Shown here piece by piece: positions 19,122-59,584 of a DNA stretch of 64,000 nucleotides. Below the pieces are notes generated by a model. It saw nothing but the letters and a program-made list of their open reading frames with translations, did no database searches and had not been told where the DNA came from. Position 1 is the stretch's first letter, and each line of letters starts with the position of its first letter. Origin of the DNA: Labyrinthula sp. Ha. Its lineage: Eukaryota; Sar; Bigyra; Labyrinthulida; Labyrinthulaceae. The stretch covers positions 62,001 through 126,000 of the forward strand of contig JAALGZ010000002.1 in the NCBI GenBank assembly GCA_015227615.1. The letters are read 5' to 3'. Made by a program: the position numbers and the translations under genes.

Positions 19122-21754
19122 ATGAAGAAAAGAAAACAAACGTTGAAAGATTATTGTTCGCAAACACAGCAGGAACCTGAATTCCTCACTACATCTGCAA
19201 TTGCTGGAGGTTTTGTTGTGTCCAAAAGCGAGAAACTTTTTATTCTCAATGATTCCACAAGTCTTTCTTTGCCAAGCAAGCGTTCAACACTTATAACGGT
19301 ATTTGGCACTAGCTATATAAGTCTTAGGTAAAAGGAAAAGAAATAGGATTTACTGCTGCTAGTATCACAAAAGAAAAGAAAATTGTTGCTATTGGGGATG
19401 AAGATGGAAATCTAAGTTTAATAAATGTTGAAAATCTATTGCCTTCTGGGAAAGAGAAAAACATAGAACCAACTTTGGATGAAACAGTTTCCACACAGGC
19501 AACTAGAATCTCTCAATTTGAAACTCAAGTTACTCATATAAAATTTTGCACCTTTAAGAAAGACGAAAATGAAATAGAGGTTCTTATTGCTTCTTCTGGA
19601 AGCAGTTTACGCGCCTTCTTTGGTGTCACCTTACAAAACTATGGAGAATGTGAAGTACAGAGTTTGAATGTGTTTGATCCAATTATTAAGGATATTGCGT
19701 TTGATAAAGAAAATGAGATTATATATGTATTAAGTGAAAAGCAAATGTTTACCCTCAAAATTTCAAATGACAAGAACAAGTTTTTTGTTGTTTCAACGAA
19801 GGATTTATATAGACGTACAGAGTATGCTGATTTAGCCAGATTACAAATTCCTACTGATTTTTTTCCGAATCAAATTACATGTTGTGGAATATATAGAGGG
19901 TTTCTTTTTTACGGATTAGAGACAAAAGAATTCGCTGTGAGGAAGGTGGAAGGAAGGAAAATTCAAGAGGAACTAATAAAGTTTGAAGTTCCCGACATTC
20001 CAAAGAAAATTGTAGCTGGCTTCAAACAGGTGCTAATTGCTCTGGATGATGGAGATTATGTTTTTCCAGATTTACTTTTTAAAAAACTAGTGGAAGATGG
20101 TGAGAGTAAACCAGCTGAACGAAGTGAAACTACTCGCAAGGTTTCAGTTGAAAGTGGAACGAAAAGAGTTTATGCAGAAAAGGTTATTGAAGAAGTGAAA
20201 CAAGCTGAGGATGATGATGATGAGAGTTTAAGCGATTCTGATGATTCTCAAAAGAATGAGGTTCTTAGGGAAATAGAAGAAGCACAGGCTACTAAATTCG
20301 CAGCGGAGGAGAAACTGCAAAGCGCGGTGGAACACAAAGAGGTTCAAGAAGAACCTGTGATCCCATTCAATCCAAACAGCACACTCGATAGAAAAGATTT
20401 TGCATTTGATTCAGCTAAAAAAGGTCATGAGATACTGGCATATAATATTGCAGGAAAGGTTCTATACAATATAAAGACAAATGTGGTTGACTTTAGCTTC
20501 CACGACAAGACCCATAGACCAAAATCAGTAGAATGCCCAGTTGAGTTTGTCGACGAACCCGATGTTTATCCTATTGCATCGTTGAAGGAAAGTCAAGGAA
20601 CAGAAGGTAAAGCTGGTGTGGTTGTTTGGACATGTTCTTATGATAGAAGATATAAACGAAGACGAGGTGGATCAAGAAAACAAGCCAATATTGCAGAAGT
20701 AGAGCAGAGTGTTCTTAAATCTGCTTGGGAGAAGGCAAATGAGGCAGAAAAAAATGGAGCTGTAATAGAAGATGAAGAAGAGGATTCGAAGCCTTTTTCT
20801 GTCATCAACTTTGTTCCCCTAGACAACTCATTTGAATCCTTCGAGTACTCAACAAAGGAACAAATCGTCTTAACCGCTGTTGGCGAGGAGTTTTTGGCGC
20901 TATATACTTCTGATAGATTGTTGAGGATAATATTACTCTCTTCTTTACAATTGCCAGGTCTATTTATAGATGCTGATGTTGTTACAATGACCGCGCAAGG
21001 TGACAAATTGTTTCTTTTATGCACCGATGGAGTAAGAGTTTATAGGTTCAGCAAAAACCATCTTGAACTCATCACTACAGTTTTTCTTTCAAGAGACACT
21101 ACAACTTCGGCTACTTATCTAGGTAGCTACAAAGAGGTTCCGACTTTGTGTGTGGATGGTCAGTTTCTAATATATGTCGAAAAATTGTCTTCTTTCGTAT
21201 CTGGAATATCTGAAGCCATTCTAAAAGGAAAACTAGGAAAATGCTTACCCGTTGGGATTAACCAAACTGGAAAAAGCTTGCAATTAGTGCTTTTTAATCT
21301 GCTGCAAAAGACTACATTTCCGCTCGACGTAAGCTTGTCTCTCTTGGGCCTGGAAAATGATACAGGAACTTTGAAACATAGGTTGCACAAATCTTATTTA
21401 GAACAGGAGCTATTTCGATTTGAGGATTCTCTTAAACTTCAAGCAGAAACCAATCTTAAGCACATGATACTCTCTGCAAAGCTTGGTAAAGTCAGTCGGT
21501 GCAAGGGAATCATCAAACTGTTAACCAACACTCAGGAGGTCGTAGAAGATGAAGCTAGCATTACTTTCCTGAACAAATTATTTACAAAGGCGAAAATTCT
21601 AATCCAGAAAGAGGCTGAGAGTAACAATTCACTCGAAGATGTTGTGGATCTATTGGCAAGTATAGAGCCAAGGTCTTCTTCTCCAAAGTTAAGAGACGTT
21701 TCTGACGAAGATAAAGAAAACCTTCCGAACTATAAAAGGCAAAGAATTAACTAG
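19122..21754 (+). CDS. CTF4: Ctf4/WDHD1/AND-1-like replisome hub protein (one 29-nt intron)
   Basis: Replication-fork adaptor that, in the known family, links the CMG helicase to DNA polymerase alpha and cohesion factors. Join 19122-19298 and 19328-21754 gives 867 aa. An N-terminal WD40-like region spans about residues 1-350 (for example IVAIGDEDGNLSLINV). An acidic linker follows near 357-372 (DDDDESLSDSDD). The SepB-type domain lies at about 555-800: FVPLDNSFESF, VVTMTAQGDKLFLL, and a helical C-terminus resembling the family's segment after the second propeller. The tail ends DEDKENLPNYKRQRIN. There is no HMG box, unlike animal WDHD1. The exon-2 frame has no early ATG, so the exon at 19122 and the intron are needed for a start. 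Its stop is 291 bp from the convergent kinase stop. Confidence 0.8.
19299..19327 (+). other. 29-nt GT-AG intron in the Ctf4-like gene
   Basis: Starts GTATTTGG and ends GTCTTAG. Phase 0: joins ...STLIT to VKGKEIGF. Without removal the first exon stops at 19329-19331 and the long frame has no start codon. Removal links both exactly and gives a natural WD-type strand order. A 1-nt frameshift or assembly error is the alternative. Confidence 0.65.
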
Positions 21755-22045
21755 GTTATTTGGGAAAAACGCAAGGAGTTGAACCTTGAAACATCTACTA
21801 TTAAGCCCATTACCTAGTAACATACATGGTTTTGGCTAATTTTTTTCAATTATGTTTCACGATTTTCTTAACAGCATGTACTTCAAAATTTCTATCATGA
21901 AAAGAAAAACATATCTAGTTCTTAAGAGTATCATTACTCAACGAGGTTCTTGACCATAAAGTAGATTTTTCTCCCAAAGAAGTTCAAAAACTAGACTGCA
22001 GACACAGAAAGATGTTTAAAATATCTCAGTAAAGCTTCCGCTCAA

Positions 22046-23336
22046 CTACTTCATCCTGAGGAACTTATTATATTGTTTGTAGAACTCATTGGCGGGGTCA
22101 CTTAATTTGTTCATTTGTTGCATAAAAGGATGTAAGAGTAACGCAGTAGATTCCAACCTTTCTACAGGATCTTTAACTAATACAACCTAAAACTAAGAGA
22201 ATAGGAAAGAGTACTTCAAGAAAGTGATGTATCAGTGATCCCCTTCGTCTTCCATGATGTGAAACTAGTTTTGGTGGAGGTTCAGAGGCTATTAAGTAGA
22301 ACAAATCAAGGGGTGTCAACCTATGCGTAGGATCATGGTGAGGAGGTTTTCCATCACCAAGCTCGATGCAAAGAACCCCTAGAGCCCAAATGTCAATTTT
22401 GTGGGTGTATGGAGTCCTTCGACACATCTCAGGTGCCAGCCAAAACGGTGAACCTTTAATGGAACCTCTTTCCTTTTTTTCTAGTGTCAAAGCTTCAACA
22501 AACCCAAAGTCAGCTAGCTTTATTTCTCCTAGTGTGTTGTACAATACATTTGCACTTTTTATATCTCTATGCATTATTTTCCTAGTATGTAGAAAATTAA
22601 GCCCTTTCAATATTTCTTTAATGGTATAAGAAATGATCTCATCTTTCCAAATATATTTCTCTTTAACTAGTTTGTTTAAGCCGGAGGCCATCTTGTCCAT
22701 TACTAAATGGTACCTTTTATGCTTTTCATCATGAAAACAATCAAAAACTGATACAATATTTTTGCAACCATTGGCAGTACAAAATGATAAAAACGATATT
22801 TCTGTTTCAATATCCTTTTTTTCATCTCTTCGTGGATTAAACTTATACTCCATCACTTTCACAGCGAAAGGCTTCTTCGTATCCTTACTTATTGCCTCAA
22901 CAACAACTCCTTGGGCTCCTTTACCTAAATTTCTTTTCCCCTGTGTAATATATTTAGAGTGAAATGATGAAGGATTAACATGGAAATGCTGAAATATTTG
23001 TTCCTCTACTTTTTCTTGTGGTTGATATCCTTTATGTTTCTCATAATAACCTTTCAACAAGTTAACCAGATCATCTCTTTCCATCTTACTCTCTTCAATC
23101 TTCCGCTTCACAACAGAAGACCTGGCAACTAGCTCTTGAATAGTTCGAGGAACTTTTCTTAATCCAGTTGGTGAAGAAGGATCGAACTCAAGATCATCTA
23201 TATTCAACTGGATCCCCACTGTTACTTCCTCTATTTCCCCCACATCTCCTATTGTCAACTCAGGTCGCTTTGAAAACATCCGCCTCACCAGCTCGGCGGG
23301 GTTAAAATTTGTATTTCTCTTCAACTTTCTTTGCAT
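22046..23336 (-). CDS. STE20/PAK-like protein kinase (one 28-nt intron)
   Basis: Serine/threonine kinase of the STE20 group, most like PAKs. Join of complement 22215-23336 and 22046-22186 gives 420 aa. A CRIB-like stretch (about residues 38-72, VTVGIQLN..LEF.., diverged from the classical Rac/Cdc42-binding consensus) precedes the catalytic domain. Kinase features: Gly loop LGKGAQGVV (138-146), Lys160 in FAVK, MHRDIKSANV (255-264), LADFGF (274-279), GSPFWLAPE (295-303), DIWALG (315-320). Unspliced, the frame stops before subdomain XI. Splicing adds LVKDPVERLESTALLLHPFM, which carries the conserved Arg. The start is placed at Met 23336 because longer frames run into the divergent gene at 23542 and look non-coding. 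The two genes share a 205-bp promoter region. Confidence 0.85.
22187..22214 (-). other. 28-nt GT-AG intron in the PAK-like kinase
   Basis: On the minus strand it begins GTACTCTTTCC and ends AGTTTTAG, phase 0 after Glu374. Removal replaces a hydrophobic nonsense tail ending GCIS with the kinase subdomain XI and a normal C-terminus ending at TAG 22046-22048. Confidence 0.8.
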
Positions 23337-23541
23337 TTCAATATGACTTAACGGAACACTTTCTGGTAATAATACTGCACTTCTTGTAAATTGCAAATAT
23401 GTCCTGCCGAAAGTTTGTGAAAGGTATGCCTCTTCTGAACAAAGGGAGGCTGATCCTTCTTCTATCACCCAAAATATCAAGTGTAAGGAAGGCACAAGTA
23501 GAAATATCTCCCAGGCAGAGGTGCAAATAGTTGGAAAATAG

Positions 23542-24324
23542 ATGGGTTTAACAGCGGCAGAAAAACGAGCTGCAAGGAGAAGGGAAAGAATACTAAAACA
23601 AGGCAAAGATAGACTATCTGTTGCACTTGGAGAAAAGAAAGAAGTTCTAGAAAAAAATGATGAGAAAATATCCTGGGAAGAAAAAAGAAAGAAGTCGATT
23701 AAAGAGAGTAAGTCTGTTGAACGAGATCAAGTGTTGAGTAATATCTCAAAAACTACCGCTGAGACTCGAATAAAAGACGAAAATGAAATTTCGGTTGGTA
23801 ATGCTTCTGTTGGAAATAAAGAAATGAAGGATGTGGTTCCAGTGAATGTTGATAAGCCTTTACTAAGTGATTTCTTAGCTGCGCACATGATAAGGTTTTT
23901 TGGTGCATTTCTAATTGCGTTCTTCTATGCATCTAAACTGGGTTTTGTTGTACAAACTTTAGATTCTGGTGTGAAAATTAATGAGGAAATCGTATATGAT
24001 GAGGTTGAAATTCAGTTTGAGATCGAAGTTAACAAGGGCCCTGCAGAAAAAGCAAGAGACGCCGCGCTTATATACCCAATGTGGATTTTATTTGTTGGCC
24101 AAATGTTTGCCTTTTTACTTGTTGGAAGAATTCGAAATGGTTTGTTTTTGGTGTCTTCTTCTGGAGTTGAAAGTCAAGAGAATTTTGTTTTAAAGATGAT
24201 CATTTCTATAAATAAGCCCTTGTTTGATAAAGCATTCCTGCTGTTGAAGATAGTGAACATCATCTTTGAAGATATTTGTTTGGCTCTAATATTATTTGTG
24301 CTTATCAAACTCTTTATTAGTTAA
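23542..24324 (+). CDS. GET2: GET2/CAML-like tail-anchored protein insertion receptor subunit
   Basis: 260 aa. In the known GET pathway the GET1-GET2 (WRB-CAML) complex in the ER membrane receives tail-anchored proteins from the GET3 ATPase, and the GET2 N-terminus tethers GET3 through a basic helix. Here the N-terminus has that hallmark: RAARRRERILKQGKDRL at residues 9-25. A charged flexible linker (31-105) follows, then three predicted membrane segments at about 115-137, 175-196 and 236-258, the family topology. The sequence is otherwise divergent, as usual for GET2, so the call rests on the basic motif plus topology. The gene is divergent from the PAK-like kinase and its stop lies 20 bp from the convergent RCK kinase stop. 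Confidence 0.75.
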   Translation: MGLTAAEKRAARRRERILKQGKDRLSVALGEKKEVLEKNDEKISWEEKRKKSIKESKSVERDQVLSNISKTTAETRIKDENEISVGNASVGNKEMKDVVPVNVDKPLLSDFLAAHMIRFFGAFLIAFFYASKLGFVVQTLDSGVKINEEIVYDEVEIQFEIEVNKGPAEKARDAALIYPMWILFVGQMFAFLLVGRIRNGLFLVSSSGVESQENFVLKMIISINKPLFDKAFLLLKIVNIIFEDICLALILFVLIKLFIS

Positions 24325-24344
24325 AAGATGGCCCGCTCTATTTC

Positions 24345-25958
24345 CTAGAATGGAAAGTACTTACGAACACTTCTTCGGTTTCTAAATGTTCTAAATTTTG
24401 GCTTGAACGTTTTTAGTAGTTTGGGACCCGGAATTTTAATTGCAGATTTCAACTTCTCAGGGTACGTAACTTTCAAATCTGAATTTTTATTCGGAGCGAC
24501 ACTGACTGGTTTTGGGTTAAATGTGCTAAACACTTGCTTCTTTACCATAAAATCGGTTGATATTTTGTTATCATCCACTTGGTCATGTTCTGGGATAAGA
24601 AATGGTTGATAAGTGCTATATCGGGATGGAACTTCAATAAGTTCTTTTTTAAGATGAGGAGCCTGTTCATTGTTTTCAAATACTGAGGGAAAACTCTGTG
24701 AAGAGAACGCTTCTTGTGCTAAACCGGGTGTAGATGGAACATTTAACTCGCTATGAAAGCTCTGATTACTCGGATTCTGCACAATAATTTCTGGGTAGTA
24801 GTCTGGGTACGGCTGAGGAGTTTTTACTGTGGGTATTAATTCGGTATTGGTTATGTTCTTCTGAAAACCAAACGTGTTCACGAAGGTATACAGATCATCA
24901 TCTTGACGGATTTGATTTAAAGGAGGAAGTTTTGTAAATGACCGTGTTAATGGTGCATCTTCAGAGGTTCTAAATGTTTCCTCTGCACTGCACGAAACAG
25001 GAACCTTAAATGAATTTTGTCTAAGGGTGAGTTTAGCGTTGAGAAAAGAGCATCCAAGAGCCTGTTTTGCGCTAGGCCGCTTGAATGGGTTGAACTGCAG
25101 CATGTCCAATAGTAGACTTGAACAGTGATTGGACACTTGAGTAAGACGTCTATTATTCAATGTTGCTCTTAAATTTGTAGGAACAAAATATGGCCATTGA
25201 AATCCTGTTTTAGCTGACAATTTCCTTGCTTCAGGCCAATCAGTTTCTCGTGGTGTTCCAAGGATGCCACAAATCTTCATCAGCTGATCAACCTCATTTC
25301 TTCCTGCAAAGAGAGGGAGTAGCATTATTAACTCTGCTAAAATACATCCAGCTGCCCAAATGTCTGCTGGAGAGTTATAAGTTTTTGAATGAAGAAGCAG
25401 CTCTGGAGCGCGGTACCATCTTGTAGAGACATACTCTGTATATGGAGGCAGAGATCTAATCTCCCGTGCTAGTCCAAAATCAGCAAGTTTAACCTTGTAA
25501 CCTGTTTCTGGGCTACTCGCACACAGAAAATTTTCAGGTTTTACATCCCGATGAAAGTACCCGTGTGAATGGATAAAAAAAAGCGCTCTTAAAATTTGCA
25601 AAAGGATGTCTTTGATGGTGTGTTCTTCTATTTCTTCACTTCTTTCTTGATGAAATTTGATCAGTTCGTATAAATTCTGATCCATGAACTCAAAAACAAA
25701 ATAAAGTTCGTTATTTTCACGAATAACTTCTTTTAATTTCACTATATTTTCATGATTAAGTTTCTTCAGTGATTGAACTTCACGTAAATTAACACACTCT
25801 TCCCATGAGAAAAATTTTCGTTTCATCTTCTTGATTGCCACTACTTCGCCTAAACTAACATATGATAAATCAAGAATACCTGAAACCGTGTTCATTGCCT
25901 TGAAAACAACTCCATAAGCACCATTTCCTAGTTCTTGAGCTACAGAATATCTTTTCAT
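24345..25958 (-). CDS. RCK-family kinase (MAK/ICK/Ime2-like), one 30-nt intron
   Basis: CMGC-group serine/threonine kinase of the RCK family (animal MAK/ICK/MOK, algal LF4, yeast Ime2), known for control of cilium length or, in fungi, meiosis. 527 aa after removal of the short intron. Gly loop [12 protein letters not shown] (about 10-21), [10 protein letters not shown], the family signature [38 protein letters not shown], and the activation segment [14 protein letters not shown] with its TEY dual-phosphorylation site. The kinase domain ends near 290. The remaining ~240 residues are Ser/Pro/Asn-rich and probably disordered. If the organism is flagellated this would be a flagellar regulator, but no other flagellar gene is in the window. 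It ends with TAG. Confidence 0.9.
25850..25879 (-). other. 30-nt GT-AG intron in the RCK kinase
   Basis: Minus strand begins GTATTCTTG and ends GTTAGTTTAG, phase 1. It is in frame and stop-free, so it reads as a 10-residue insertion ([10 protein letters not shown]) between VSG and EVVAIKKMK. Kinases of this family have no insertion there. Removal restores the standard spacing. Confidence 0.75.
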
Positions 25959-28900
25959 TTTCTGTTTTTTAGGGTTGCATTCTAAACGTTAATTTTACTG
26001 ACATTGTATGCATTTAGTAAATGAAGAGTCTATACAAGCATTTAATGCTAGATTAGAGGTTTGCGTTTATTAATAGACTAAGAGTGGGATCGACCTATAC
26101 CAACTATTTGAGATCACTCATGAGAAGCATTAAGATCTTATAGTAAGAAGTCGTTCTTCTAAGTTAAATGTTTCAAATCTTTTAAGATGAATCATCTCTT
26201 GATCTTTTGTAAATACGGAGAATGCATCCATCTTCGAGATTGCTTTTTTATAGTGAAGAGTTTACTTCTGTCTTTCACCCTGAATAGCACTGATTTGAAT
26301 GTATCTGTTTTAATTTGAAACCTGTTCATCATGTTCTTCTTATAGAAAGAGGTTCTTAATGTTATTTAAAGGCCGAATCTTAATCTGGACTTTTAAATAA
26401 TCCTTCTAATTTTAAGCGAGTTCTAAGAGAGGTACCCTTTCTGTTAAATAAAGGAGAATATTTTCCCCCAGGATCTAGGACATAGATGAGAAACTTAGTT
26501 GTAAGTGTTATTAATTAAAAGGTTCAGCTTGAAAGTGCTTACTTGGGCTTGAGCAAACTGCAAGAATACGATTTTACCATTTATCCTGTTAAAAAGAATA
26601 GCATGTTTGTTAGCAGCTATCTAGCTGATGATGACGACAAGTTTAGAAAGAAAATTACAATCCTTCAAGGGACAAGTAGACTAAGACTTTTAATTCTAGA
26701 ACAACTAGTTTCTCTTAACTGATGAGCTATTCAAGCTAATAACCTGGTTTAATAGGTGTCCTAAATCATCTAAATTATTTACTTTGGCCTATAAGTTTAT
26801 ACCCCAAGTGCGATTTAGCTTACCTTACACTTTTAAGGTTTTAATACCTTTACTAATAATAATACTATACTGGTTTACAGGGTGTTGTCTCAAGTGAATT
26901 GATGCTTGCCATTAGAAAAGATATAGCTATACTCTTTTAATCTTTGCTCATTGAGGTTTCTTGTTGTTGGATAACGTAACTAGTAATTAGCTAATAGCCC
27001 AAACTAATCGTGAGATACGTAACTGTCTAACCAACGTTTTCTATAATACATTTATTAATATCACATATCAACAAGGTGCTCGAGTAACCTCTCATACTTA
27101 ATCTAGGTCTTTTTAGTGGTGAACAACGAAAAGTGTTGTTCACAGGAAGAAAGAATAGAATAAAATTGATGACTGTATGGCGCATGGACTGACTTAGCTT
27201 CACTGACCCGATATTTTGAAATCTGAAGAGGATGTTAAATGAGCCTAATGTGTTCAACATGTTGTTTTGAGCAAATACTGTGAGAATAATTTAGGAACAG
27301 ACACTATTTAATCATACAAAGAAAAATTAATTGTAACTTTGTTTAAACTTGTGGAATATGAGGAAGATTTTGTCTATGCGACACATTTGTCTCTGGTTGA
27401 TGCTAATATTGAAGTCATGTGCAAAAAAGTTTTACATATCCTTTCTTAACTATATAACAGTCATGAAACTAGCGAAGCAGAATCGAAACAGAATATCATA
27501 CTAGCCGCATGAAAACACTAGAATCGAAGTCTTTTTCTTTGCATGGTAGGATCACATTATCTGATGTTGTCGACTTAATTCATTTGAAGTGACTTCCTAT
27601 AAAGCAAACAATATTCTTAGATATAGGTAACTTAACTATTTAAAAATTAAAGTCAGAACAAGCATTGTACATATCGGCTATATAGCCTTTTGTTGAAGAA
27701 AGTAGAGGGATTTACTAAATCATACTAAGTATATGATCACAATTATGAAGGAAGAAGTAAGAAAATTTATTTTGCAATATGTATTGCACCACTTACGCAG
27801 TAGTGTTTGGTGTTTCTCGGGGAATTTCCCTTGCCACTTTCTATTTGGAAAGTTTTGACAACATGGATCTAAGTGATTGTGACTCTATTGTTTATCCCAA
27901 GACCTGTACAGACCTTGAAGCATCACAAGACTGCAAAAGGCTTGACTCTACTTTTCAACAAATTAATTGATATCTATACTGTTCAAGTAATGGGAATAGA
28001 AAATACTTTGTATTCTTAACCTATTACTCGGAAGGAACAATTGGTAAAAAAGTAACAAACAAACTACGGGAGTTAAGATTTCCAACCTAGGAAAATTAGG
28101 TGAAGATATAGGTTGTTATTGTATACGAATATTATTTTGAAGAATTGTCTCCTGTTAATAATTTTCAACCTACGCGAAAAAACTATCTCGTGTTTCTAAT
28201 ACCCTTCTAGATTGTCTCCCATACTCACCTAAAGTAAAACCCAAAGTTTTGCAAATGGCCTCTATGCTCTTTGCCAACCACACTGCTGCTGAATTAGTCT
28301 TTACTCGTTCAAAATGATATTTCTACAGACTCTCTTGTTGATGAGGAAAATTTGCTTAAACTCCTGAAATAACAGTGTGATAAAGAAATTATGTTAGATA
28401 TTCGAGAAAGTCTTCAAGAGTTACTATTTACTTTACCTACTTATTCAATCTTCAGTTGTTCCTACCATTGAACATAATCTGGAGTACTGTTGTGGATGGT
28501 GATTTTAACATAAGAAACTTCATCCCTGCCGACTATCTGGTTTTAATTAAATTTGATGAATAAGATTTTCATAGTTCTAGAACTGGTAAATGCTTTAGCT
28601 TTTGATATGCTGTATCATTTATTCTCATACATTTTCCTCTGGTTATAATTCATGTTTTTGGATTCAAGATATTGTCATCTTCTATTTTTTAGGTGACAAT
28701 CGGAAAGTCTTGAGAATAGAGCCTAAATAGAAAGGAAACATGGTTCCTCAAAAACTGGAAAGTGATGATCAAGTAGAGTAAGAATATGATCCAATTTGTT
28801 TCATTTTGATTTCATTAGCTATCTGCTTCATATCAATATCAATTGCACCTATTGTTTAAATGGATTATATACACTTTAGATCAGCTTAATAATAATATGA

Positions 28901-45222: not shown

Positions 45223-45374
45223 TGTTGCTATATGTTGAGTGTTGTGTTGAGAATAAAGTACTAAAAGTGAAGGTAGCTAAAATAGTACCGAAGGAGTTAG
45301 TTTGGTTTTATTGAGGTGTGTATCACCATAATTAATTATTAAGTGAATACAATATAAAACAACTTGCGCCAATA
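45223..45374 (+). repeat. 5' LTR of the copia element
   Basis: 152 bp, TGTTGCTATATG...CTTGCGCCAATA. Contains an AATACAATATAAAACAA stretch near its end that could hold the TATA-like promoter. Confidence 0.92.
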
Positions 45375-45385: not shown

Positions 45386-45770
45386 TAAAAGCCTCTAACT
45401 GACGATCCAACATCGAGATAAATCAGGTTCTAAGAGTGTCTGGAAGTAAGGGACGATAACTCGAGAGAAGAATTTTTATCCACAAATCACTCAAACATTA
45501 AATAACTTCTTTGACCTGTATCATACGTATTCAAAGAGATAGGTAAATAAACTTGTTGTCATATTTCTCTTTTTGGTATTGTTTACGCAATATTAACACT
45601 TTTTATTTGATAACTTTGGTAACGTTTGCGTTTCGTGTAAGAAAGTTGTTGGTGACAGTTACCCAACATACGTTTCAAAGTTTTACTCCCGGGTACCCTA
45701 CGATATAAAACGAGTACCAAACAAACCTAAATACATAAATAAAAGGACAAAAGACAATAAGAAGAGAACA

Positions 45771-48700
45771 ATGAACTACGAAAAACAGGCCAATCAGTTA
45801 CCCAAACTTGGAACCCAACGTGTTATCTTCAGAGACTGGCAAGAATCACTTCTGGCTTATCTTGGAAAGAAACATTTATCCATGTATATTAACTACAATG
45901 TACATCCTCCTCAATTAGTTGAAAAAGATACTAAACATTCAGAAGTAGCCAAAGATATGATTCAAACAGCCAAAGGTTCCAACCCATTTAATATTTCAGA
46001 CATCCAACATTTTACGAAAACTTCCAATGAAACCCCATTTGACTTATTCAAAATATCCATGAGAGCACACGTTTATTAAATCAATGACGATGTTGTAGCT
46101 TGTTATGAAGATGAAGAACATTTTTATGAAGCTAAACTTCAATATGCAAGTGATATCAGTGCTGTTAAACACATACTTTGGATGACCATGATCGTCGAAC
46201 TTGTTCACTATGTTGACAACACTGAATCTTTGTTCCAATGTTATACAGCTATTAAGTTTCACTATGAGAAGGACAAACAAACTTCAAAACTCTCTGCAAA
46301 AATACGACTCCAAAAAATTCAATATAGAGACTTGAACTCTTATATTAATATATTCAGAAAAAGATTTGCAGAATACAAACTCCATGGAGGAACTGACAGC
46401 AGGCAAATTGTAGAAACTTTCATGTTAAATCTTCCAGACAATAAATATCATCTTCATAAAACCATCTGCAATACAGAGACACTGAACGATACAATATTTT
46501 ACTTTCTAAAAGTATCAGCAAATATGAGTCTGCGATGTCCAGAACAAACATTACCAAAAACGAAACCAATAAGCATCAACAAGACAGAAGTAACGAGATC
46601 AAAAACTTTCCAACCAAAGAAACGCTGCATGAAATGTGGAGTGTTTGGACACAAACTCGATGCTTGTCCAAATGAAGCCTTTGTTTGTTGGAAGTGTGGG
46701 AGTCACGATCACAAATGGAAAACTTGTTCTGTTCAAGTCATCCGCGTTAACAAGATAAACATTTTTCAAGAAGAAGAAGAGGAAGAATCTTGTCAACAAC
46801 ATGATATTGAAGACTCAAACTTCAACCCATTTTTCACTCCATCCGATGATGAAGATGAAACAACTCCATCTCACTTGAACTTCAATATTCTAAGAATGAA
46901 AATAAATATTCAAAATAATACAATTGAGAACCAGACATGCAACTGCAGATTCAAAAACCAGTGTATCAAGGTACTACTGGACTCTGGAGCGACACGTCAT
47001 GTTACTGGTGACAAACATCTTTTGCGTAATACATCCCCTGAAACTCAAGTATCTTTATCTGGAGCTTTAGACCAAGTTAACTTTGACACAATGAAAGGAG
47101 ACATCTACATTCTTCTACCCAATAATACTGTTCTACAACTAAAGGATGTAGTCTATGTTCCAATGCTAAAAGAAAAGCAAACCATCATTAGTGAGTCAAT
47201 GTTAGTTGACGATGGTTACGCTTTTCACAAGTATCAACAAAAGAGCACACTTACAAAAAACGGCTACACTGTATCAACCTTTGAGAGACAGAATGGACAT
47301 TTCTTTCTGCATGGAACAAACAATCCGGAAAATAACATTGGAATACTTCAGTTGAATATTTCAGCTACAGATCTTATGCACTATAGACTTGGTCATATCA
47401 ACGATAAATACATACTGTCCACTGGATTCAAACCAATGACACAGTCGTACTGTATTGGATGTTCAGCAGGAAAGTTAGTCCAGAAAAACAAAGGTAAAAC
47501 GGTGAATTACGACACCTCTAAACTCTGGAAAGCAACTTACCCTTGGGAAAAGATTCACCTTGATACGATTGGAAAACTTCCTTCATCCATCAACAACTTC
47601 AAATATATCTGTCTCATTGTTTGTAATTACTCTGGTTATCTTACACCTATCATTGTCAAAAATAAATCAAATATATCTGGATTAGTGAAGAAATTTATTA
47701 AGAGTGTAAGAAAACTTCATAATAAACGTGTTAAATATATCTTCAGTGACAGAGGTACCGAGTTTACAAAGTTGAATGAATATTGTTTCAAGAAAAATAT
47801 AATAAGAGAATATTAAAATGAATATTTTCCTTCAGAAAATGGGAAAATAGAACGCCAAAACCGCACATTTCTAGAAATGATGAGAGCCTTCTTGATCCAA
47901 GCAAATATCTCAGAAAAATATTGGTGCTACTGTGCAAACCATAGCTGCAATATTATCAACTCCATTACTAGAAAAAACGGCACGTCTTCATATAAACTTG
48001 TATTCAACAAAGATCCTAAACTCGAAGAGTTGAAGTTATTTGGAGCAAGAGGCTATGCACTTTCATCTAAAAAGAAAAAGTTTCAAACCACAATACCTAT
48101 TATATATCTTGGTCAAGATAACGAATCCAAAGCAAACATATGCATAAACTGTAAAAACGGGAAGATAGTGCGCGTAAGAACAACCAAGTTGGACGAAGTG
48201 GGAACCATTAACTCAGCATATGGAAAGTTCATTCATCAAACTTCGAGATATTCATCAACTTCAAATACTTCAAAGATAGAAAAAGTGGTCCAACATATTA
48301 CAAAAAATATACTTCAAATACAAGAAAACCGCGAAGAAACAGCAGAATTATCTGACGACGACCATTCTAAGGAACAAGGGAAGGAAACTGAGTCCGTCAC
48401 ACCCCTATCTGAAGACACTGCAGCCCCTAAAATGTTCAAAACATCTAATAATACCTTAGGAAGCTTCGATATATCACAGGAGAACATTATCAGTGGCCAG
48501 AGACGTCACATGAAGGTTCATGTTTTAAATTCTTCATTATCTGCAAATATTGATTTATCGATAATTCCCCCGAGAAATTTTGGGCAGATTAACGTTAGAA
48601 AAGATTCGGAAGCCTGGTATGCCGCTTATACTAAAGAAATCGAATCTTTAGAGACTACCGGTACATTTGCAGTTGTACCACGTCTAGATTCGCGAACTCG

Positions 48701-50099
48701 GGTAATCAAACTGGTCGAACTGTTCAAAGTCGAACGGAACATGAACAACGAAATTCTCGCAAAGGTCCGCCTATGTGCTAACGACAATAAGTATGGAGAA
48801 AATACCAGAAGAAAAGTTCCTGAATATTATGCTCCAGTCGCACCAGTGGCAACAATACGTATTTTCTTATGTATTGCCCTACGATTCAACACCTGGTTAC
48901 GTCAGTTGGACATAACCGGGGCTTTTATTTACGGCACATTAGAAAAACCAATATCCATTGAGTTATCAAAAGGTCATGCCAAGAGAGAAGGAAACAAGTA
49001 TGTTTGGAAAAGCTGCACTTCAATATATGGACTCAGAAATGCACCGAAGATTTGACACAAAACAATATCGGAAGCTCTAATTTCAGCTGGATTAAGGCCA
49101 TTACCGAGTGACAAATGCTTGTTCACAAATGAGGGAAGGAAAAAGAGAATTATAGTTTTGGTTCATGTCGATGATCTATTGTATAGTGGGGAAGAAAAAG
49201 AAGTCGATGCATTTGAGAACATGATGTCGGAACGTTTCAAGTTGACCTTTAATCCAGTTGCTGAAACTTATGTGGGATTGTGTTTGTCTAAAGGAAGGAA
49301 CAAGACATGTTACGTAAACTTATATAACCATATTGTAAATGGTTTTGAGCAGCATCGACTGGAGGTTTCCAAGAATAAACTAGAAACACCGATGAATAAA
49401 GATCTTATTGCCGATGACGCCAATAAGTTATACACAGAAAAAGAATATCAACAGATTATGGGCTTGCTGAATTATATTACTGTTTACGGAAGACCAGAAA
49501 TGAGTTTTTCTATCCACATGTTATCTACGAAGTTGAAGAGTCCGAATCAATGTTGTCTGGAACAATCCAAGCGAGCTCTGATGTATTTATTTAAAACGAA
49601 GAATAAGAAGTTGAAATACGAGGCTTTGAAAGATTCTGAAAATGTTTTATACTTGCTGACTGACAGCTCCTATGCCAATGGAGAAAATCGTAAGAGTGTG
49701 TTTGGAAATATAATTCTTTTAAATAAGAATATTATATTTTATAGGAGTAAGACAGAACCAATTGTAACTACGTCGTCAACAGAAGCAGAATACGTGGGAA
49801 TCAGTTGCTCAATCAAAGATTTAAGGGTCAGTTATAATTTGTTAAAGGAATTGGAAGTGGATTTCAAGACAGTTATTTTAATTGACAACCAGTCTGCTCT
49901 GAGATTATGTAAAAGAGAAATTGCTACAGGAAGATTGAAACATCTTGACACCAGATATAAATATGTTTCGCAGGAAGTGCTTGCTATGAAAGCAGAGTTA
50001 CAGTATGTGCAAACAAGTGAGAACTGGTCTGATATTATGACAAAGTTATGTGGCAAGAATATGTTTAATAAGTTCCTGGATCGGTTCTATGTTAACTAA
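45771..50099 (+). pseudogene. Copia gag-pol polyprotein with three in-frame stops
   Basis: One frame throughout. Gag: 45771 to about 46900, with two zinc knuckles (CMKCGVFGHKLDAC and CWKCGSHDHKWKTC, about 46627-46730). Protease: LLDSGATRHVTGD (about 46975-47013). Integrase: zinc-binding HYRLGHI (about 47379) through CIGC, and the catalytic region with SDRGTEF near 47745-47765. RT: VRLCANDNKYGEN, LRQLDITGAFIYG (about 48896-48935), VHVDDLLYSG (about 49161-49190, catalytic DD intact). RNase H: LTDSSYANGENRKSVFG and the STEAEYVGIS segment. Stops: TAA 46077, TAA 47814 in integrase, TGA 49053 exactly where the conserved Trp of the ...AP-x-x-W motif is expected. No frameshift was seen. Confidence 0.92.
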
Positions 50100-50106: not shown

Positions 50107-50258
50107 TGTTGTTATATGTTGAATGTTGTGTTGAGAATAAAGTACTAAAAGTGAAGGTAGTTAAAATAGTACCGTAGGAGTTAGTTTGGTTTTATTGAGG
50201 TGGGTATCACCATAATTAATTATTTAGTGAATACAATATAAAACAACTTGCGTCAATA
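50107..50258 (+). repeat. 3' LTR of the copia element
   Basis: 152 bp, TGTTGTTATATG...CTTGCGTCAATA. Seven substitutions and no indel relative to the 5' LTR. Confidence 0.92.
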
Positions 50259-52126: not shown

Positions 52127-54688
52127 TTAATTTTCTATCTTCTGTTTCCGCTTTGCTTTAATAAGCAGCATAAATTCTACAAATTCAACCAAATCTATTT
52201 CTCCACTACCATCTTCATCTACCGCAGAAACAAGCTCTCTCAATCTAGCTTTTCCAGGATATTGATTAATACTCTCAAGACCTAATTTTAACTCCTCTTC
52301 TTCTATTGTTCCACCCCCATCTAAGTCCAACATATTAAACACTGTCTTGTACATTTCAATCTCCTCTTCTGATAAATTCTTTTCGTCTTTAATCTCTTCT
52401 AATCTTCTCAACAAACTCTGTTCTTCTTGCTGTTGCTCTGTAGCTTCCTCCATACTTGTTGTTACCACACCAATAAATAAAGTCATTAACACAAGAGCTC
52501 CAATGAAAATGAAAATTATAAAATACATAGCAGCAATTGCAGGTTGAGAAACTGGAGATTTACAATATTGAGGAAACTCACCATATCCATATTTATCGCA
52601 TCCAAAAATATTAATATACATGACATCAGTCCAGTCTTCCATAGTAGCTAAGCGAAACATTGTCAAAAGAGAAGTTAAGAGATCTCCAAAATGCCAAGGA
52701 TCATTTTCTTGAAATAGGATCATTCCAATGATAGAAAAAAAATAAAATACTAAAAGGAGAATAACACCAATGTAAGTGATCGAACTTACTCCTTTGATTA
52801 GCGCTACAACTATAATTTGCAGTGCTGGAAGAGACTTGACTAATTTAAGTACTCGAAGTAATCTTAAGAGTCTAAGAATTGTAAGCATAGAACCCGATCC
52901 AGGAAGAAGTGAACCAACAACTACTATATAATCAAATATATTCCATTTTTGCAAAGACTTCCTTTTTATGAAATATTTCCATGGACAAAGTCCTTCTGCA
53001 ACAGTTTTTAAAAGAACCTCAATGGAAAAAATAACTAGAATCCCAGTATCTAAAGCATGCAAAAAACTTGATCCAGAGAGTGAAGGGTAAGTTTGCAATC
53101 CAACAACAACTCCGGCAACTAAAATAACAATGATGATAAAATTATTAAACACTGCTGATTTCACAACGAGTTCTGCCTTTTCTCCAAGAACAATCCACAA
53201 CCCTTTGTAAAAATCAAAACTGTACCAGAAACCAGGTAAAGCATATGCCTTCCTTAAATTTTCTGATCCAGGTGTTAAACTATTTACCAACAACTTCCCA
53301 CTGTCATCTACCTCAATCCCATTCCAAGCCTGCAAGAAGCTAATCTTCACTCTTTCGTGCTCTGCTGCCGATTCTTCATCCTCTTGGTCCACAATGTTTC
53401 TAATAAAGGTATAAACTCCAATAACAAGAGTTGCTAGTCCTCTAAATGTTCTTTTCTCTCCATCCAGTCGGGGTGAAATATTTTCATCCGGCATACCTTC
53501 TTCCATCGCGGAAGCAATTGACAATCTGCTGAACGAGTTGGCATCTTCAGCACTAAGAGAAGCACGTACTTTTTCTATTTCAGCATGAAATGCAGCCATG
53601 TTTCCCGTCTTCATCGATGCCTTTTTAGTTCTTTGCGCTGCTTTTTCCATTTTTCTTTTTTTTTCTTTTAACTCAATCTCCTCCTTCATCTGTGCCATTG
53701 ATTCTGCCATACTCATTGTAACAGCACCCACAAATAAACTTAAGATGACCAAAGCAGATACTACAACAAAACTTACAAAGTACACACTTGAAACAGCTGA
53801 TCGGCTACTTTTTCTCTGATCACAAAAATATGGTGCTCCATAATCAACTGCCGCATCAAACTTTGTAGTGTAAACTCCAGATGGATACTTTTCACTAGCA
53901 CATCCGAAAATGTTAATATACATAATATCAGTCCAATCTTCTAATGTACAAATTCTAAAAAGGGTAACCATTGACATTTCTAATGAACCGAAATGGAGCG
54001 GATCATTTACTGCAAAAAATTCAATTCCTATAATAGCGTAGAGATAGAATACAAGTAGCAGAAGAACAAGAATATAACCAATTGATTTAACTCCACCTAC
54101 AAGTCCCATGACAATAATTTGCAGCTTTGGAATTTTCTTGACAAGTTTCATTACTCTTAAAAGTCTGATAAGTCTCAAAAGTCCTGCAGAATTGCTTTGT
54201 CCTGAACTAAGTAATTGACTAAAGACAGGTAGAGACATTAAGACAACAATAAAGTCAAAAATGTTCCAGTACTTTTCTTCTGAAGTAATAAATGAGAGGG
54301 GATTATTTCCAGTAGCAATAAGCTTTAAGATGAGTTCAAACCCAAAAATGAACAGAATTATGTCATCGATAAGACTGATCACGGGAGAATCTTCGAGTGA
54401 TTCATAGGTTTGTAAGCCTACAAGAATTCCAGCTAGACAAATCACCACTATCACAAATCCATTGAAGGTGTCATTATGAATAATTCTATAAGCTTTTGCT
54501 CCTATTTTTAAATATTGCTTTAGGTACTTCTTCTCTGAAACAAACTTTTCTTTCCATGCATTAGGGTTTTCAATTACAAGCGAAGCAGCTGAGGCAAAGT
54601 TTGGATCTACCTGGGACCCTTTTTTCTTCTTCTGCTGCTTGAGCTTTAAAGCAAGATTTCTTCCTGCAATTGCAGCTGCGGCAGCCAT
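52127..54688 (-). CDS. Two-domain voltage-gated cation channel with C-terminal EF-hands
   Basis: 853-aa membrane channel with two complete six-helix repeats. Domain I is about residues 73-330: voltage sensor LLRLIRLLRVMKLVKKIPK (170-188), pore filter CTLEDWTD (247-254). Domain II is about 511-750: sensor ILRLLRLLRVLKLVKSLP (604-621), filter ATMEDWTD (681-688). A charged linker (about 331-495) joins them. The tail has two canonical EF-hand loops, DLDGGGTIEEEE (788-799) and DEDGSGEIDLVE (824-835). The pore repeats are much alike (both T-x-E-D-W-T-D-x-M-Y-I-N-I-F-G-C), unlike two-pore channels, whose EF-hands lie between the repeats and whose filters lack Glu. The Glu-Asp filters suggest Ca2+/Na+ permeation. 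Closest by pattern to single-domain EukCat-type channels of diatoms, here doubled. Confidence 0.9.
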   Translation of the reverse strand: MAAAAAIAGRNLALKLKQQKKKKGSQVDPNFASAASLVIENPNAWKEKFVSEKKYLKQYLKIGAKAYRIIHNDTFNGFVIVVICLAGILVGLQTYESLEDSPVISLIDDIILFIFGFELILKLIATGNNPLSFITSEEKYWNIFDFIVVLMSLPVFSQLLSSGQSNSAGLLRLIRLLRVMKLVKKIPKLQIIVMGLVGGVKSIGYILVLLLLVFYLYAIIGIEFFAVNDPLHFGSLEMSMVTLFRICTLEDWTDIMYINIFGCASEKYPSGVYTTKFDAAVDYGAPYFCDQRKSSRSAVSSVYFVSFVVVSALVILSLFVGAVTMSMAESMAQMKEEIELKEKKRKMEKAAQRTKKASMKTGNMAAFHAEIEKVRASLSAEDANSFSRLSIASAMEEGMPDENISPRLDGEKRTFRGLATLVIGVYTFIRNIVDQEDEESAAEHERVKISFLQAWNGIEVDDSGKLLVNSLTPGSENLRKAYALPGFWYSFDFYKGLWIVLGEKAELVVKSAVFNNFIIIVILVAGVVVGLQTYPSLSGSSFLHALDTGILVIFSIEVLLKTVAEGLCPWKYFIKRKSLQKWNIFDYIVVVGSLLPGSGSMLTILRLLRLLRVLKLVKSLPALQIIVVALIKGVSSITYIGVILLLVFYFFSIIGMILFQENDPWHFGDLLTSLLTMFRLATMEDWTDVMYINIFGCDKYGYGEFPQYCKSPVSQPAIAAMYFIIFIFIGALVLMTLFIGVVTTSMEEATEQQQEEQSLLRRLEEIKDEKNLSEEEIEMYKTVFNMLDLDGGGTIEEEELKLGLESINQYPGKARLRELVSAVDEDGSGEIDLVEFVEFMLLIKAKRKQKIEN

Positions 54689-54841
54689 TCATAAATTTAA
54701 ACGTCTTTTGTATAATTCTGTTTTTACCTAAAGGATACAAAAGTCCTAAACCCCTTCACGACTTAATACTGAAAAAACAACATATACTGACACGGAAACT
54801 TCTCTATCATCATAATACATATCTAATTCACTTAATCAAAG

Positions 54842-57800
54842 CTACTTCTTGGCAACAGAATCTTTCTTATACGGAATATCTGGAAGAGTTAAATCATTTG
54901 CAGAGATTTTTCGTTTTTTTGGGGTGGCAGCTTTGAGTAATTTTGGCAGGTTGTTGAATTGCTCCTTAGCAGTAAGTGCATTCAATTGTTTTTTCAGTTG
55001 TTCTTTTTCTCGTCTCTCGAGCTCGATCTGTGACAAAAGTATATTTCTCTGTTCTGTAACTTCCAGCAGCGCCAAAGATAAACCCCTGTTTGCATACTGA
55101 AGATTCAGCACCTGATCAGCGGCAAAATGTCGAGTTGCCCAATTTACTCGAGAAAGAATTTCAGGTTCTAAAACAGCATCTAGAGATTGTGACGCATATT
55201 CCGCCGAAACAAAAATGTCATCAAAACTAACCCTACCTTTATTTCTAGTTTTCATCTTATATCTGCTTCTTGTAGGTCCATCCGCTGAGCGCAAGCTCAT
55301 TGTAGTTGGTTTAGAAGTTTTCTTATCCTTAACAAAATTCTTGTTTACCGATCTGCCCCATCCTGCTACTAAAGCCATCTCATAAGCATTTTTTAGAACG
55401 GCTTCATTGTCTACCCATTGACTCGTAACCAGAGGTACTTTAGCTCTCTTAGGTTTAGTCAGGGCCAGAGTCAAGTTACTTGAACTCAACTCTTCTTCAT
55501 TGTTCTTAATCAGCGAGCTAATTTTCCTCTTGGCTATAAACTTCTGAGCAATCGAAGGAGAAGAAAATATGTATCTATCAGCAAAATCAGCAAGAACTTT
55601 TCCACTTGAACCAAATGAGGTGTGGTCATAAAGATAGGATCGATCCTCAACACACTGTTGACAAAATATTTGTGATTTAGGCAACTTCGTAAGTGAAGGA
55701 TCAGCACAGAAATAATGATAATTTCCATCACACCCATCACACATTATCATTGCCTCAACTTTATCATTCTTTTTACAATTAAGACAAATCTTTTGGCCTT
55801 GATTCGATTTTACCTTGTTTGTGATTTGCTTTTCTTCTTCTGCAAGCTCTTCTTCTGTTACACTCAGCTTCGAAGAAAAAAACTTGTTCGAAGAAAGCAT
55901 CTTTGGTGAAATTTTAGTTGTATTTGGGTTATTGAAGAAGGATCGTATTTTTGCATGCTTCAAGAAAAGGCTCACAGTTTTTGCTGTTTGAAATGGGCCA
56001 AAAGATTGCGGTCTAGGTTGAAACACGGTCGCTTTATCTACGACGGCGAAACTTAGTCCTCTTGTATTTGATTTTAGCAGATTAACTCTTCGATCAAAAA
56101 ATCCGAGGACATTTTTAGCCCAGAGAATAGAATCATTAATGCAGGTTCGAATAATATCCAAATCAGGTTGGGGAAAAAACTTCGAATTTTCATACTTGTT
56201 TCGAAAAGCAGCCCATAAATCAGGATCCTCAAATTCGGTTGAATAATTCTGTCCAGATTCGCTTTGTGATAGATATGCAGGAAGAAAAGAATTATTGAAA
56301 AAATTCTTGAGTTCAATATTTGTTTTTGTAACAACTTTCTCTGCACACAGGTTCCAAGCAAGCCCATAGTTCGATTGAAGTGCTGAATCAAGTAGTTTAA
56401 TAGCTTCATAAGCTGAAAATTCGCTCCCAAACAATTGCTCAGAAAATACGTTAGAAACGCCAAAAAAGCGATCTAAGACTTCAAGAGCAAGATAATTTTT
56501 TGCCTCATCTGGACTCTTGCCCTGAATTGTGCACACATGATAAAACTCCGTACCTGGCTTAGCTCGCGAGGATTCTCCCATTATAAGCGACAACCCATAA
56601 CGAAATCTGAGCGATAGTGGCCTATTCAGAGTCTTAGGCTGTGGTCCTCTGTAAACAGTCAATAAGGTGTATTTAAGATTGTTTTTAGGTATACAAACGT
56701 CTCGAAGAACTTTTTGAAGAAGTTGCACCGCATTTGCAGATTTCAGGTCTAATTTCGGGGAGATAATTGTGTAGGAGTGTCCACTCCGATGTATCATTTT
56801 CACCTTGGAAGAAAGTAACACCTGTCCTTCTCTTTCCATTTGTAGACATTCCAAGCATTGATAACAGCCAGTACAGACTAAACATTTTGCATGAGGAGTG
56901 TCATTAAGCTTTCGGAAACAAAAAGCGCATATAGTTCTTGTTTCGTGTGCCTCATCTATAATACCAGGTACATCAAGATCAATTGATTGCATCCCTTTCT
57001 TATTTCTTCTCGCTTCTTTGGAAGATAAGACTGCAACTCCGGGACCAGTAAGTTCACCATCAACATACTTCAAACTTTTATAGCTATATGTGTAAGCATT
57101 TTCAGCAACAACTTTAGCCAACCGAGCATTATAGTGTCGATCGATGAAGAAAGTACGACCTGCGAGAGTTCTCTTAACAATCTTAAGTTTCTTTTCAAAA
57201 GTTGTCTCTTCAGCTGGCTTGCTGAATACATCCAACACTTCAATTCCTTCGGAGAGTATATCTTTAATGCAGGCGATTCCTTTACCTTGTGGGAGAGTAT
57301 TTATGTGTTGAATGTAATCTGGTTTGGAAACAACTGGAACCTTCATTAAGAGCCGATGTAATGGTTGGACATCTGTTTCGTAGGAAGAAAAAAGTTCGTT
57401 TAATCCAAAGGCCACTCTTCCAGAGGTAAGTAAGACATCACTAGGCCAATACAACCAAGCAACTTTAGCTTTCTTGATTCCATTCTTGTCCTGAAAGAGC
57501 TCTTCAATTTGACCAATGAAAAATCCTAACCTAGACATTATATTTTCAGAGGTATAGTTTGCATGATCTCCTAAATTCTTCAGCTTAGTTTCTTTGAAAA
57601 CTACTACAAAATCCCATATTTGAAAAGTTTCCATCTCTTCTCCTCCAGCGTCGTATCTTTTAAACCCAATGTAGTTAATTTTACCATTTGCTGATTTGAA
57701 CTCGGAGCCTTGCCACGAATAAATTGCTGTTTGAAGTGTTCGACTTGCAACAGTATCCCTAAATCTCACATCGAAATCAGCATCAGATGGAGTTGATGCC

Positions 57801-59584
57801 TTGAGCTTATTAAGAGCTATTCTTGAGCTCTTCTTCCGTCGAGACCCTTTTTTAACAGGTTCAGAGCTAGGATAATGATTTCTTCTTGTAGCAGCAGGCG
57901 TGGCAGGTACAAAAGTCGAAACCTGAGCTTTCAGATCATTGGCTGCTAAGAGCTCCAAAGATGTTCCGGTGACTCTATAGCCAAACAGATTATTTCCTGC
58001 ATCCTTCAAATGTTTTTTAATCAACGCAATTAGGTGTTTTTGAAGATTATACCTAAATTTTGACTTTACCGAAGTTTGAAAATATTCCTTACCAACTCTC
58101 TCCTGGAAATAATTTGTAATTTCATCTTCACAAAACTTCTTAATCTTTTGTAGTTCATCCAAAGAGCGGTGTTCAATTAACTTCTCTCTATGAGAAATTC
58201 TTGCTTCTGTTTCTTTTGGGAACACAGTACTTAAGAAAAACCACAAGACAAAAAATTTTTCTGAGATTTTTGGATTTTCACCTGGGGTAATCTCTACCTT
58301 CCATTCAGACACAGGTTGTTCTTCTTTTAACTTGATTACAATCTTCGGTACTTTCTCTTTCCCCTTAGACTTTAATAAGACACTCTGTTCTGGTCTCTCA
58401 CTCAATCTAGTTTTCAGTTTAATAGGTTTTACCTGGCTAACCTTTTCATAAAGCTTTTTACCAGATTCTGGTCTCCTCTTCTTAGCAGGAACCATCCTTT
58501 TCTTAGGAACGGGTACAATCGGTTCAAAGGAAACCGCGTTTAAAACTCTCTTACGCTTGTTTGATTCTTCAGAAACAGCATTAAGTAGCGCATCGACGCC
58601 ATCGCGCTGACCAGTTGGTTTTAACCTTGCTTTTCTCTTAATAGAGTTCCTTTGGCCACTCTCATTTCCACTCTTAAGACCAAGCGAGACTGGCGGAGTA
58701 GCAGCAGATTTTCTTCTTCTGGATGATGTAATTATATTCCGTGGGTCCACATTTCCATCTATCTGATTTGTTAAACCAAACTCAATGGGTTCAGGTTCTA
58801 CAGAATTTGCTTGAACAAGAACTTCGGGACTCCTTCCGCTAGTATTTTCATTATTAGATTTAGTTCTCATCTTAATCTTCTTTAAATTAGACGCTTTGAT
58901 TTGTTCAATCGCTCTTCTTGGTGTCTCCAGGTTGGATGGTTTAACCTGCACCTTGTTTTGACTAACCTGGACTTTAGTTTTCTGTTTCTTCGGGGAGATT
59001 TCAGATAGATTCGATGAATTTTTCTTACTTACGCTCAAAGGAATCTTCTCTTCATCTATTCTTAGATCCTTGTTCTCTACCTGTTGAGTTGAAGATATAT
59101 TTTTCGTGTCCCGTGTTACTGTAGCTTTACTAGGTTTATCAAAAGCCTTTTGCAACGCTTTTTCAAAATCATTCTGTTTCTTTTCATTCTTTAAATCCTC
59201 GGCATTCTTTTCTGTCAAAGGAACAATCTTTTCTTCTCCTTTCACGTACAAAATCCAAAGTTTCTTTTCTTTTCCTTGTGCATCAACATACTTGCATAAA
59301 ACCCAACTTCCAAAATACCCAACTGTAGGATCACCTGGATCAACGTAATCCTCCTTATATGAAAATCTCTTGAAACGATTTCTCATGTGCGTCTCCAAAA
59401 ACTCAGAAGAACCACCACTTTTGAAACCTTCGGCAGTTGCTAGAAAATATTCATTTCCTGAATTTGTCTTGCTTTTTGGTGGTTTTATTTTTACATAAGA
59501 GTCCTTTTCTATTGATAGTTTTTCTGTTTTTTCTGGTTCCTAAAAATTTTAAATTTGTTAAATATTTACTTTTAAGGTGCTCAT
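54842..59584 (-). CDS. Large BAH / zinc-binding / PHD-finger chromatin protein (one 30-nt intron)
   Basis: Nuclear chromatin-associated protein, about 1570 aa. Exon 1 is only 15 nt (59570-59584, MSTLK), then a 30-nt intron, then one exon from 59539. The N-terminal third is basic and low-complexity. A BAH domain lies at about 637-767: FQIWDFVVVF, FFIGQIEELFQDKNG, KVAWLYWPSDVLLT, LNELFSSYETDV. A Cys/His cluster at about 876-925 resembles a ZZ-type finger (CAFC..CLVC..C..C..C with a later HRSGH). A PHD finger starts near 1257: CLNCKKN, MIMCDGCDGNYHYFC, CQQC. A C-terminal coiled coil (about 1510-1540) follows. BAH plus PHD modules usually read histone marks; the target is unknown. The long frame begins without ATG, so the exon-1 join supplies the start. 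It lies 153 bp behind the channel gene, same strand. Confidence 0.82.
59540..59569 (-). other. 30-nt GT-AG intron after a 15-nt first exon
   Basis: Minus strand begins GTAAATATTTAAC and ends AATTTTTAG, phase 0. It follows ATG AGC ACC TTA AAA and precedes GAACCAGAA, from which the frame is open for 4.7 kb. It contains an in-frame TAA, so retention would truncate the protein at once. Confidence 0.7.

Follow-up and report, generated by a model that had tools for sequence, protein, structure and literature searches.

Candidate ultra-short GT-AG introns in the genome of a probable labyrinthulomycete, and an altered box in its U6 RNA

A stretch of 64,000 nucleotides (nt) of genomic DNA (contig JAALGZ010000002.1, positions 62,001 to 126,000; referred to here, at its full length, as the window) contains four segments of 28-30 nt, each in a different gene, and the question that they raise is whether such small pieces are introns or belong to the genes that they interrupt. 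A preliminary description of the window had named them as GT-AG introns of a Ctf4-like, a PAK-like, an RCK and a BAH/PHD gene. Inspection of the sequence confirmed the positions of all four, their lengths (29, 28, 30 and 30 nt, respectively), their GTA and TAG ends and their phases (0, 0, 1 and 0; that is, three of phase 0 and one of phase 1). Taken together with a sample of the genome to which the window belongs, our results suggest that the segments very probably belong to an ultra-short, genome-wide class of U2-type (GT-AG) spliceosomal introns.

Four segments in four genes

The clearest of the four cases is that of the STE20/PAK-like kinase, encoded on the reverse strand. Its 28-nt segment (22187..22214) separates exon 1 (22215..23336), which has a tentative start codon and contains the Pkinase match, from a last exon of 47 codons including the stop (22046..22186), which was recognized by translation and whose stop was located by eye. 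The segment disrupts the frame of the kinase domain, which picks up again downstream, and a reading through it terminates four codons past it. Removal of the 28 nt raised the Pfam Pkinase score from 168.9 bits (match 4-199) to 180.9 bits (match 4-263), the two query proteins behind these scores being of unequal N-terminal length, and subdomain XI was regained, in keeping with the kinase subdomain that the preliminary description had given as lost and restored. A solved structure of STK25 aligns over the junction. As for the name, the "PAK-like" kinase belongs to the STE20 family; among solved proteins it is closest to STK25, STK24 and MST4, and after these to the PAKs.

In the two-exon RCK/MAK-type kinase gene (24345..25958, reverse strand; start taken from the sequence reading), the 30-nt segment (25850..25879) is in frame and free of stop codons. 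It would encode 10 residues that are missing in 119 of 119 aligned relatives, a count that excludes the public protein model P0121, since that model is the same gene read through; the preliminary description had likewise called the insertion foreign to the family. Once the segment was removed, the Pkinase score rose from 215.8 to 233.3 bits. P0121 is the closest database protein (EukProt, scaffold_2) and has a name that we take to be in MAKER style; an HSP90 model with a name of the same style is 100% identical to the HSP90 of the present genome. The model joins the RCK and STE20 kinases into one protein and overlooks both kinase introns, retaining the RCK segment and ending four codons after it reads through the 28-nt segment of the STE20 kinase. 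Existing gene models of this genome can thus misread introns, and P0121, a fusion with one intron kept and another truncating it, is a practical warning to those who use them.

P0121 could also be taken at its word. Because it keeps the RCK segment and stops soon after the STE20 read-through, and because no in-frame stop interrupts the RCK 30-mer, the segments might be retained coding or non-functional sequence. The RCK 30-mer would then be an insertion specific to its lineage, and the genes for the kinase, Ctf4 and BAH would be truncated or internally started. We consider this very unlikely: the same model merges two adjacent genes and drops kinase subdomain XI, none of the 119 RCK relatives has the insertion, and like segments with an adenine at position -8, described below, recur in other genes (outside the window, 24 of the 34 short introns have it).

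The remaining two cases lean on start exons and are weaker, that of Ctf4 being the weakest. In the Ctf4/Mcl1-like gene, on the forward strand, the 29-nt segment (19299..19327) lies between a proposed exon 1 of 59 codons (19122..19298) and exon 2 (19328..21754; Pfam Mcl1_mid, 40.4 bits). Without exon 1, the first methionine is residue 140 of the open reading frame (ORF), and the coding score of the exon is far above that of its own other two frames. The 30-nt segment of the BAH/PHD gene (59540..59569, reverse strand) has an internal in-frame stop and separates a proposed exon 1 of five codons (MSTLK; 59570..59584) from exon 2 (54842..59539; Pfam matches to BAH at 31.9 bits and to PHD at 29.8 bits), where the first methionine would otherwise be residue 52 of the ORF. 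An ATG is thus supplied in both genes, as had been proposed, on evidence weaker than that for the kinases. A splice-signal matrix built independently of the window gave the Ctf4 intron 12.6 bits and the other three 18.1-21.6 bits. Sixty matches in the window exceeded 11 bits, and three of the four introns ranked 1 (STE20/PAK-like), 5 (BAH/PHD, 18.4 bits) and 7 among them. Since first-order shuffles of the window yielded 25-50 such matches, the matrix alone is indecisive.

Intron lengths and geometry in a genome sample

The genome containing the window (50.84 Mb, 153 contigs) was sampled at the loci of two protein families. From 132 kinase matches, we took 20 loci with stops or cut short, which are not all such loci; for the kinesins, all 30 matches listed (~22 genes) were taken and 16 loci were run, while L063, L064 and L066-L069 were used for the profile and not run. 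Profiles made from continuous paralogues were then used in a spliced profile alignment in which any segment, with any ends, was allowed to drop out, up to 130 nt at kinase loci, 320 nt at the 16 kinesin loci and 500 nt at nine kinase loci. A penalised general kinase profile was dropped, its signal being drowned by kinase inserts, and a cheap-insert version was used instead.

A GT-AG removal above the threshold was obtained in 23 rounds with the PAK-like and RCK kinases and the 20 kinase loci and in 14 rounds with the 16 kinesin loci, and in 11 of these 37 rounds GT-AG was the top removal among all possible ends. The curated set comprises 39 introns: the window supplies four, 13 of the 20 kinase loci supply 19, and 11 of the 16 kinesin loci supply 16. 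The preliminary description had proposed the intron length distribution as a check, and on the genome sample this proved to be a narrow peak with a mode of 29 nt (27 nt, one intron; 28 nt, 10; 29 nt, 13; 30 nt, eight; 31 nt, four; 32, 34 and 73 nt, one each). Among the lengths open to the searches, 38 of the 39 introns measure 27-34 nt. Ultra-short spliceosomal introns are the best-supported interpretation of the original four segments, and the sample widens it to the genome. All 38 short introns have GT-AG ends, GT-AG being itself a selection criterion. At kinase locus L037, a single 29-nt removal fuses DWWSF with GVLVYEMIVGIPPF and leaves 100 codons free of stops, where the read-through is full of them.

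The sole clearly longer intron, of 73 nt (GTATAT..ATAG), lies at positions 819-891 of kinase locus L045. Three kinase loci were kept out of the curated set (L034, with an ambiguous 33-nt candidate; L039, with alternatives of 27-54 nt; and L040, with a weak one of 36 nt). The spliced profile alignment found no intron at kinase loci L046, L048, L050 and L053, at kinesin loci L073, L074 and L082, or at the kinesin controls L062 and L065, both of which had also contributed to the profile. Five kinesins (L071, L072, L075, L076 and L085) have a common phase-1 intron site in the P-loop glycine codon, with introns of 28-29 nt; because the site is shared and the intron sequences are unlike, the position is either ancient or repeatedly hit. 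In seven kinases (L035, L036, L038, L043, L044, L051 and L052), introns were seen by eye near the activation-loop motif CGTPE, at neighbouring, non-identical positions.

A further control was made by scanning 319,530 bases, consisting of the window and 77 of 90 loci (the other 13, duplicates or overlapping, were excluded), for frame-bridging segments that connect two stretches of coding-like sequence. At 26-34 nt, 35 such GTA..TAG segments were found, whereas the 35 other triplet pairs obtained by permuting A, G and T averaged 6.1 and reached 17 at most; at a second setting, the count was 33 against 6.7 (maximum 13). The excess was absent from the same bases at 35-70 nt (27 against 31.3) and at 71-140 nt (58 against 77.2).

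The interiors of the introns have a fixed point as well. An adenine stands at position -8 in 27 of the 38 short introns, the runner-up among positions -16 to -4 having 12 of 38; with a background of 0.21, the binomial tail is ~4e-11 before correction for 13 positions. Profile alignments are blind to intron interiors, and the -8 adenine, which is independent of selection in this sense, supports splicing. A strict subset, which leaves out the four introns of the window and eight chosen by eye or as a second choice, has it in 18 of 26 (tail, 1e-7). Within the window it is found in three of the four, including those of the Ctf4/Mcl1-like and BAH/PHD genes, and the RCK intron has an adenine at -7. 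When the short introns were aligned by their 5' ends, no comparable adenine column appeared; counted from that end, 26 of the 27 introns that have the -8 adenine place it between +21 and +24. The adenine at -8 is the probable branch point. A typical intron is 28-31 nt long and consists of GTA, a weak next region favouring A at +5, a T-rich body, the probable branch adenine at -8 and TAG.

Errors in the assembly or sequencing (indels), or pseudogenes, might be bridged by chance GT..AG segments, and several kinase matches do cross in-frame stops; pieces of retrotransposons lie within the same window. Indels are not expected to repeat a length of 27-34 nt with identical ends, a T-rich body and an adenine at -8, nor is the length peak seen with permuted pairs, and the L037 kinase has a clean frame after one removal; this explanation is, in our estimate, even less probable than that of retained segments. 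That the segments are minor (U12-type) introns, of which short examples exist in Blastocystis (PMC10639083), or introner-like copies of one mobile family is the least credible proposal of all, given 38 short GT-AG introns with weak 5' ends, column counts (not pairwise comparisons) that reveal no common sequence beyond the splice signals, and a genome in which U12 was not found, its control being equally silent.

Spliceosomal RNAs and the U6 box

If the segments are spliceosomal introns, the small nuclear RNAs (snRNAs) that would recognize them are of interest. U1 is present in three copies that score 66.2 bits, slightly under the gathering score of 69.5, and begin with AUACUUACCUG; U2, also in three copies, scores 112.6-117 bits and has GUAGUA. 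Both look canonical in sequence. A U4 gene scores 48.8 bits. U1, U4 (on the opposite strand) and U3 genes lie inside ~1.3 kb at locus L031 (G000:C96:198793-201939), and more U1 and U2 copies are found on contigs C96 and C135. The cluster is partly duplicated, as 501 bases examined look identical between L031 and L033 and the full 3,147-base stretches differ.

A single U6 gene was found (L054; G000:C46:223545-223653, 59.9 bits), with AUAGAGA in place of ACAGAGA. In an exact search of the 50.84 Mb with a 19-letter string, the AUAGAGA form occurred at one place and the ACAGAGA form at none. A run of T follows the gene, and the computed energy of U4/U6 stem II is -22.9 kcal/mol for the genome's own U4 and U6, compared to -13.1 and -10.3 kcal/mol when one partner is the Rfam consensus. 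A U6 pseudogene is unlikely because of the T-run and because the U4-pairing strand fits its own U4 far better than it fits the consensus.

ACAGAGA is, to our knowledge, the form of the box in almost every U6 gene described. In established structures, the base that is changed here lies opposite intron position +5. The box pairs with the intron (PMC10581693; PMC11732430), and the ACAGA box was reported as invariant in 240 species, namely 230 Saccharomycotina and 10 outgroups (PMC10581693). Among the 38 short introns, position +5 is occupied by A 17 times, by T 13 times, by G six times and by C twice (tail of 7e-4 for A), and A is found in 14 of the 26 of the strict subset. A change of C to U in U6 would allow pairing with A at +5 in place of G, and it may have co-evolved with the preference of the introns at this position. 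The tendency toward +5 A is consistent with, rather than proof of, compensation for the U6 change. A comparable case is Cyanidioschyzon merolae, in which a change in the ACAGA box of U6 could compensate a splice-site change; the altered base there is the central A, changed to U and facing +4, whereas here it is the C, changed to U and facing +5 (PMC10581693). As a rare natural change of ACAGAGA that is accompanied by a matching tendency in the introns, the present system makes co-evolution of U6 and the 5' splice site directly testable.

Several points weigh against reading the four segments as members of a genome-wide class of introns recognized in this way. The segments are known from genomic sequence alone. 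The four of the window entered the curated set from the original finding, and eight of the 39 introns were chosen by eye or as a second choice (two at L035, the 31-nt intron of L043, one at L070, three at L076 and the 28-nt intron of L079). With free choice of ends, the best removal from the PAK-like kinase was a 73-nt segment that is not GT-AG (gain of 19.6, against 12.1), and no GT-AG removal from the RCK kinase reached a gain of 8 bits in the spliced profile alignment. Two scans with other settings separated GT-AG from other pairs poorly or failed to do so: by dinucleotides only, at 27-32 nt, there were 37 GT-AG and 32 GA-AG segments, with 8-20 for five other pairs, and a high coding threshold left two candidates, a number tied by four other pairs. 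The coding score of Ctf4 exon 1 was matched by 46 of 122 open intergenic stretches, and no solved relative covered this exon in the structure comparison; BAH/PHD exon 1 is only five codons long. Of another 14 frame-bridging segments of 26-34 nt, which are not among the introns counted above, eight have the -8 adenine. Because removals were capped at 130, 320 or 500 nt, introns beyond these ceilings would escape, and because the kinase loci were selected for stops or breaks, the sample cannot yield an estimate of intron density. As to the RNAs, A at +5 is found in only 17 of 38 introns, U5 was not found in the genome, where its control was equally silent, and the assembly may lack the true U6, or an intron may split that gene.

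Host affinity, known short introns and other features

The affinity of the host was judged from two proteins. Oomycetes and other stramenopiles account for most of the named relatives among the 120 HSP90 matches listed, next to three plant records and one of a sand fly; two of the plant records top the matches listed, and the nearest full-length proteins are at 81-83%. A PfaD-type subunit of polyunsaturated fatty acid (PUFA) synthase was recognized in an open frame of 1497 amino acids with 570.1 bits (cut-off, 449.25), a cut-off that one of 14 prokaryote controls passes too. Among eukaryotes, PfaD-type PUFA synthase is typical of labyrinthulomycetes. Jointly, the two proteins make a labyrinthulomycete (Bigyra, Stramenopiles) the most likely host, and Proteromonas, which had also been considered, was dropped in view of them. 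Labyrinthula sp. SR_Ha_C, whose accession appears in PMC11951076, is a candidate with no link to the window itself.

Blastocystis, too, belongs to the Bigyra. In three of its subtypes the commonest intron length is 30 nt (PMC5608401), and the median has been given as 31 nt (PMC3129679); a length of ~30 nt is therefore already a known kind. Blastocystis resembles the present genome in its GT-AG introns, in a sharp length peak near 30 nt and in belonging to the same major group; it differs in assembly size, which is 12.9-18.8 Mb in Blastocystis (PMC5608401) and 50.84 Mb here, with pieces of retrotransposons. Stentor, a heterotrich ciliate, likewise has introns of nearly fixed length with a GUA start and a fixed branch adenine (position 10 of 15), but these are 15-16 nt, or half as long, and its U6 retains ACAGAGA (PMC9505925). 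Our search of the literature, most subscription papers being outside its scope, did not turn up ultra-short introns in any labyrinthulomycete, and PMC11951076, PMC13345962 and PMC11322444 do not use the word "intron" in their main texts. What is new here is a second lineage near Blastocystis, with a larger genome, a fixed adenine at -8 and a change in the U6 box.

The preliminary description had held that the introns are not simply part of genome compaction. This fits a genome of 50.84 Mb and the retrotransposon pieces in the window, and compaction is insufficient as a cause because 30-nt introns occur in a second stramenopile lineage whose genome is larger and bears retrotransposons. Such a combination does have precedents. 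The mikrocytid Mikrocytos has uniform tiny introns (16-17 nt) alongside transposon invasions, but in the reduced genome of a parasite, with 224 introns of strongly conserved sequence (PMC10245619). Trichomonas vaginalis has type B introns of ~25 nt in an unusually large, repeat-rich genome; unlike the present case, it has 63 active introns overall, of two length types and with a recognisable branch motif (PMC12316389).

A wider scheme, which we put forward tentatively and hold to be somewhat improbable as a whole, is that of a rewired spliceosome. U6 would have changed from ACAGAGA to AUAGAGA and the introns from G to A at +5, with U1 remaining canonical; U6 would choose the 5' splice site, and the geometry would be fixed by the adenine at -8 and +21 to +24. 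Considered with Blastocystis, introns of 30 nt would then be ancestral to the Bigyra and would predate parasitism and compaction.

The window contains further features of interest. Pieces of a Copia-type retrotransposon (gag_pre-integrs, rve and RVT_2) occupy 45597-50099 and are flanked by near-identical intron-like strings at 45261-45288 and 50145-50172, which probably lie within long terminal repeats (LTRs). A second broken element, at 8536-11325, has an RVT_1 match of 72.3 bits, a weak endonuclease match and a strong AT skew, and is non-LTR-like. At 63027-63998, a gene for asparagine synthase B has top matches among metagenome proteins (up to 69%), and the named matches listed are bacterial (~63-66%); this pattern makes it possible that the gene was acquired by transfer.

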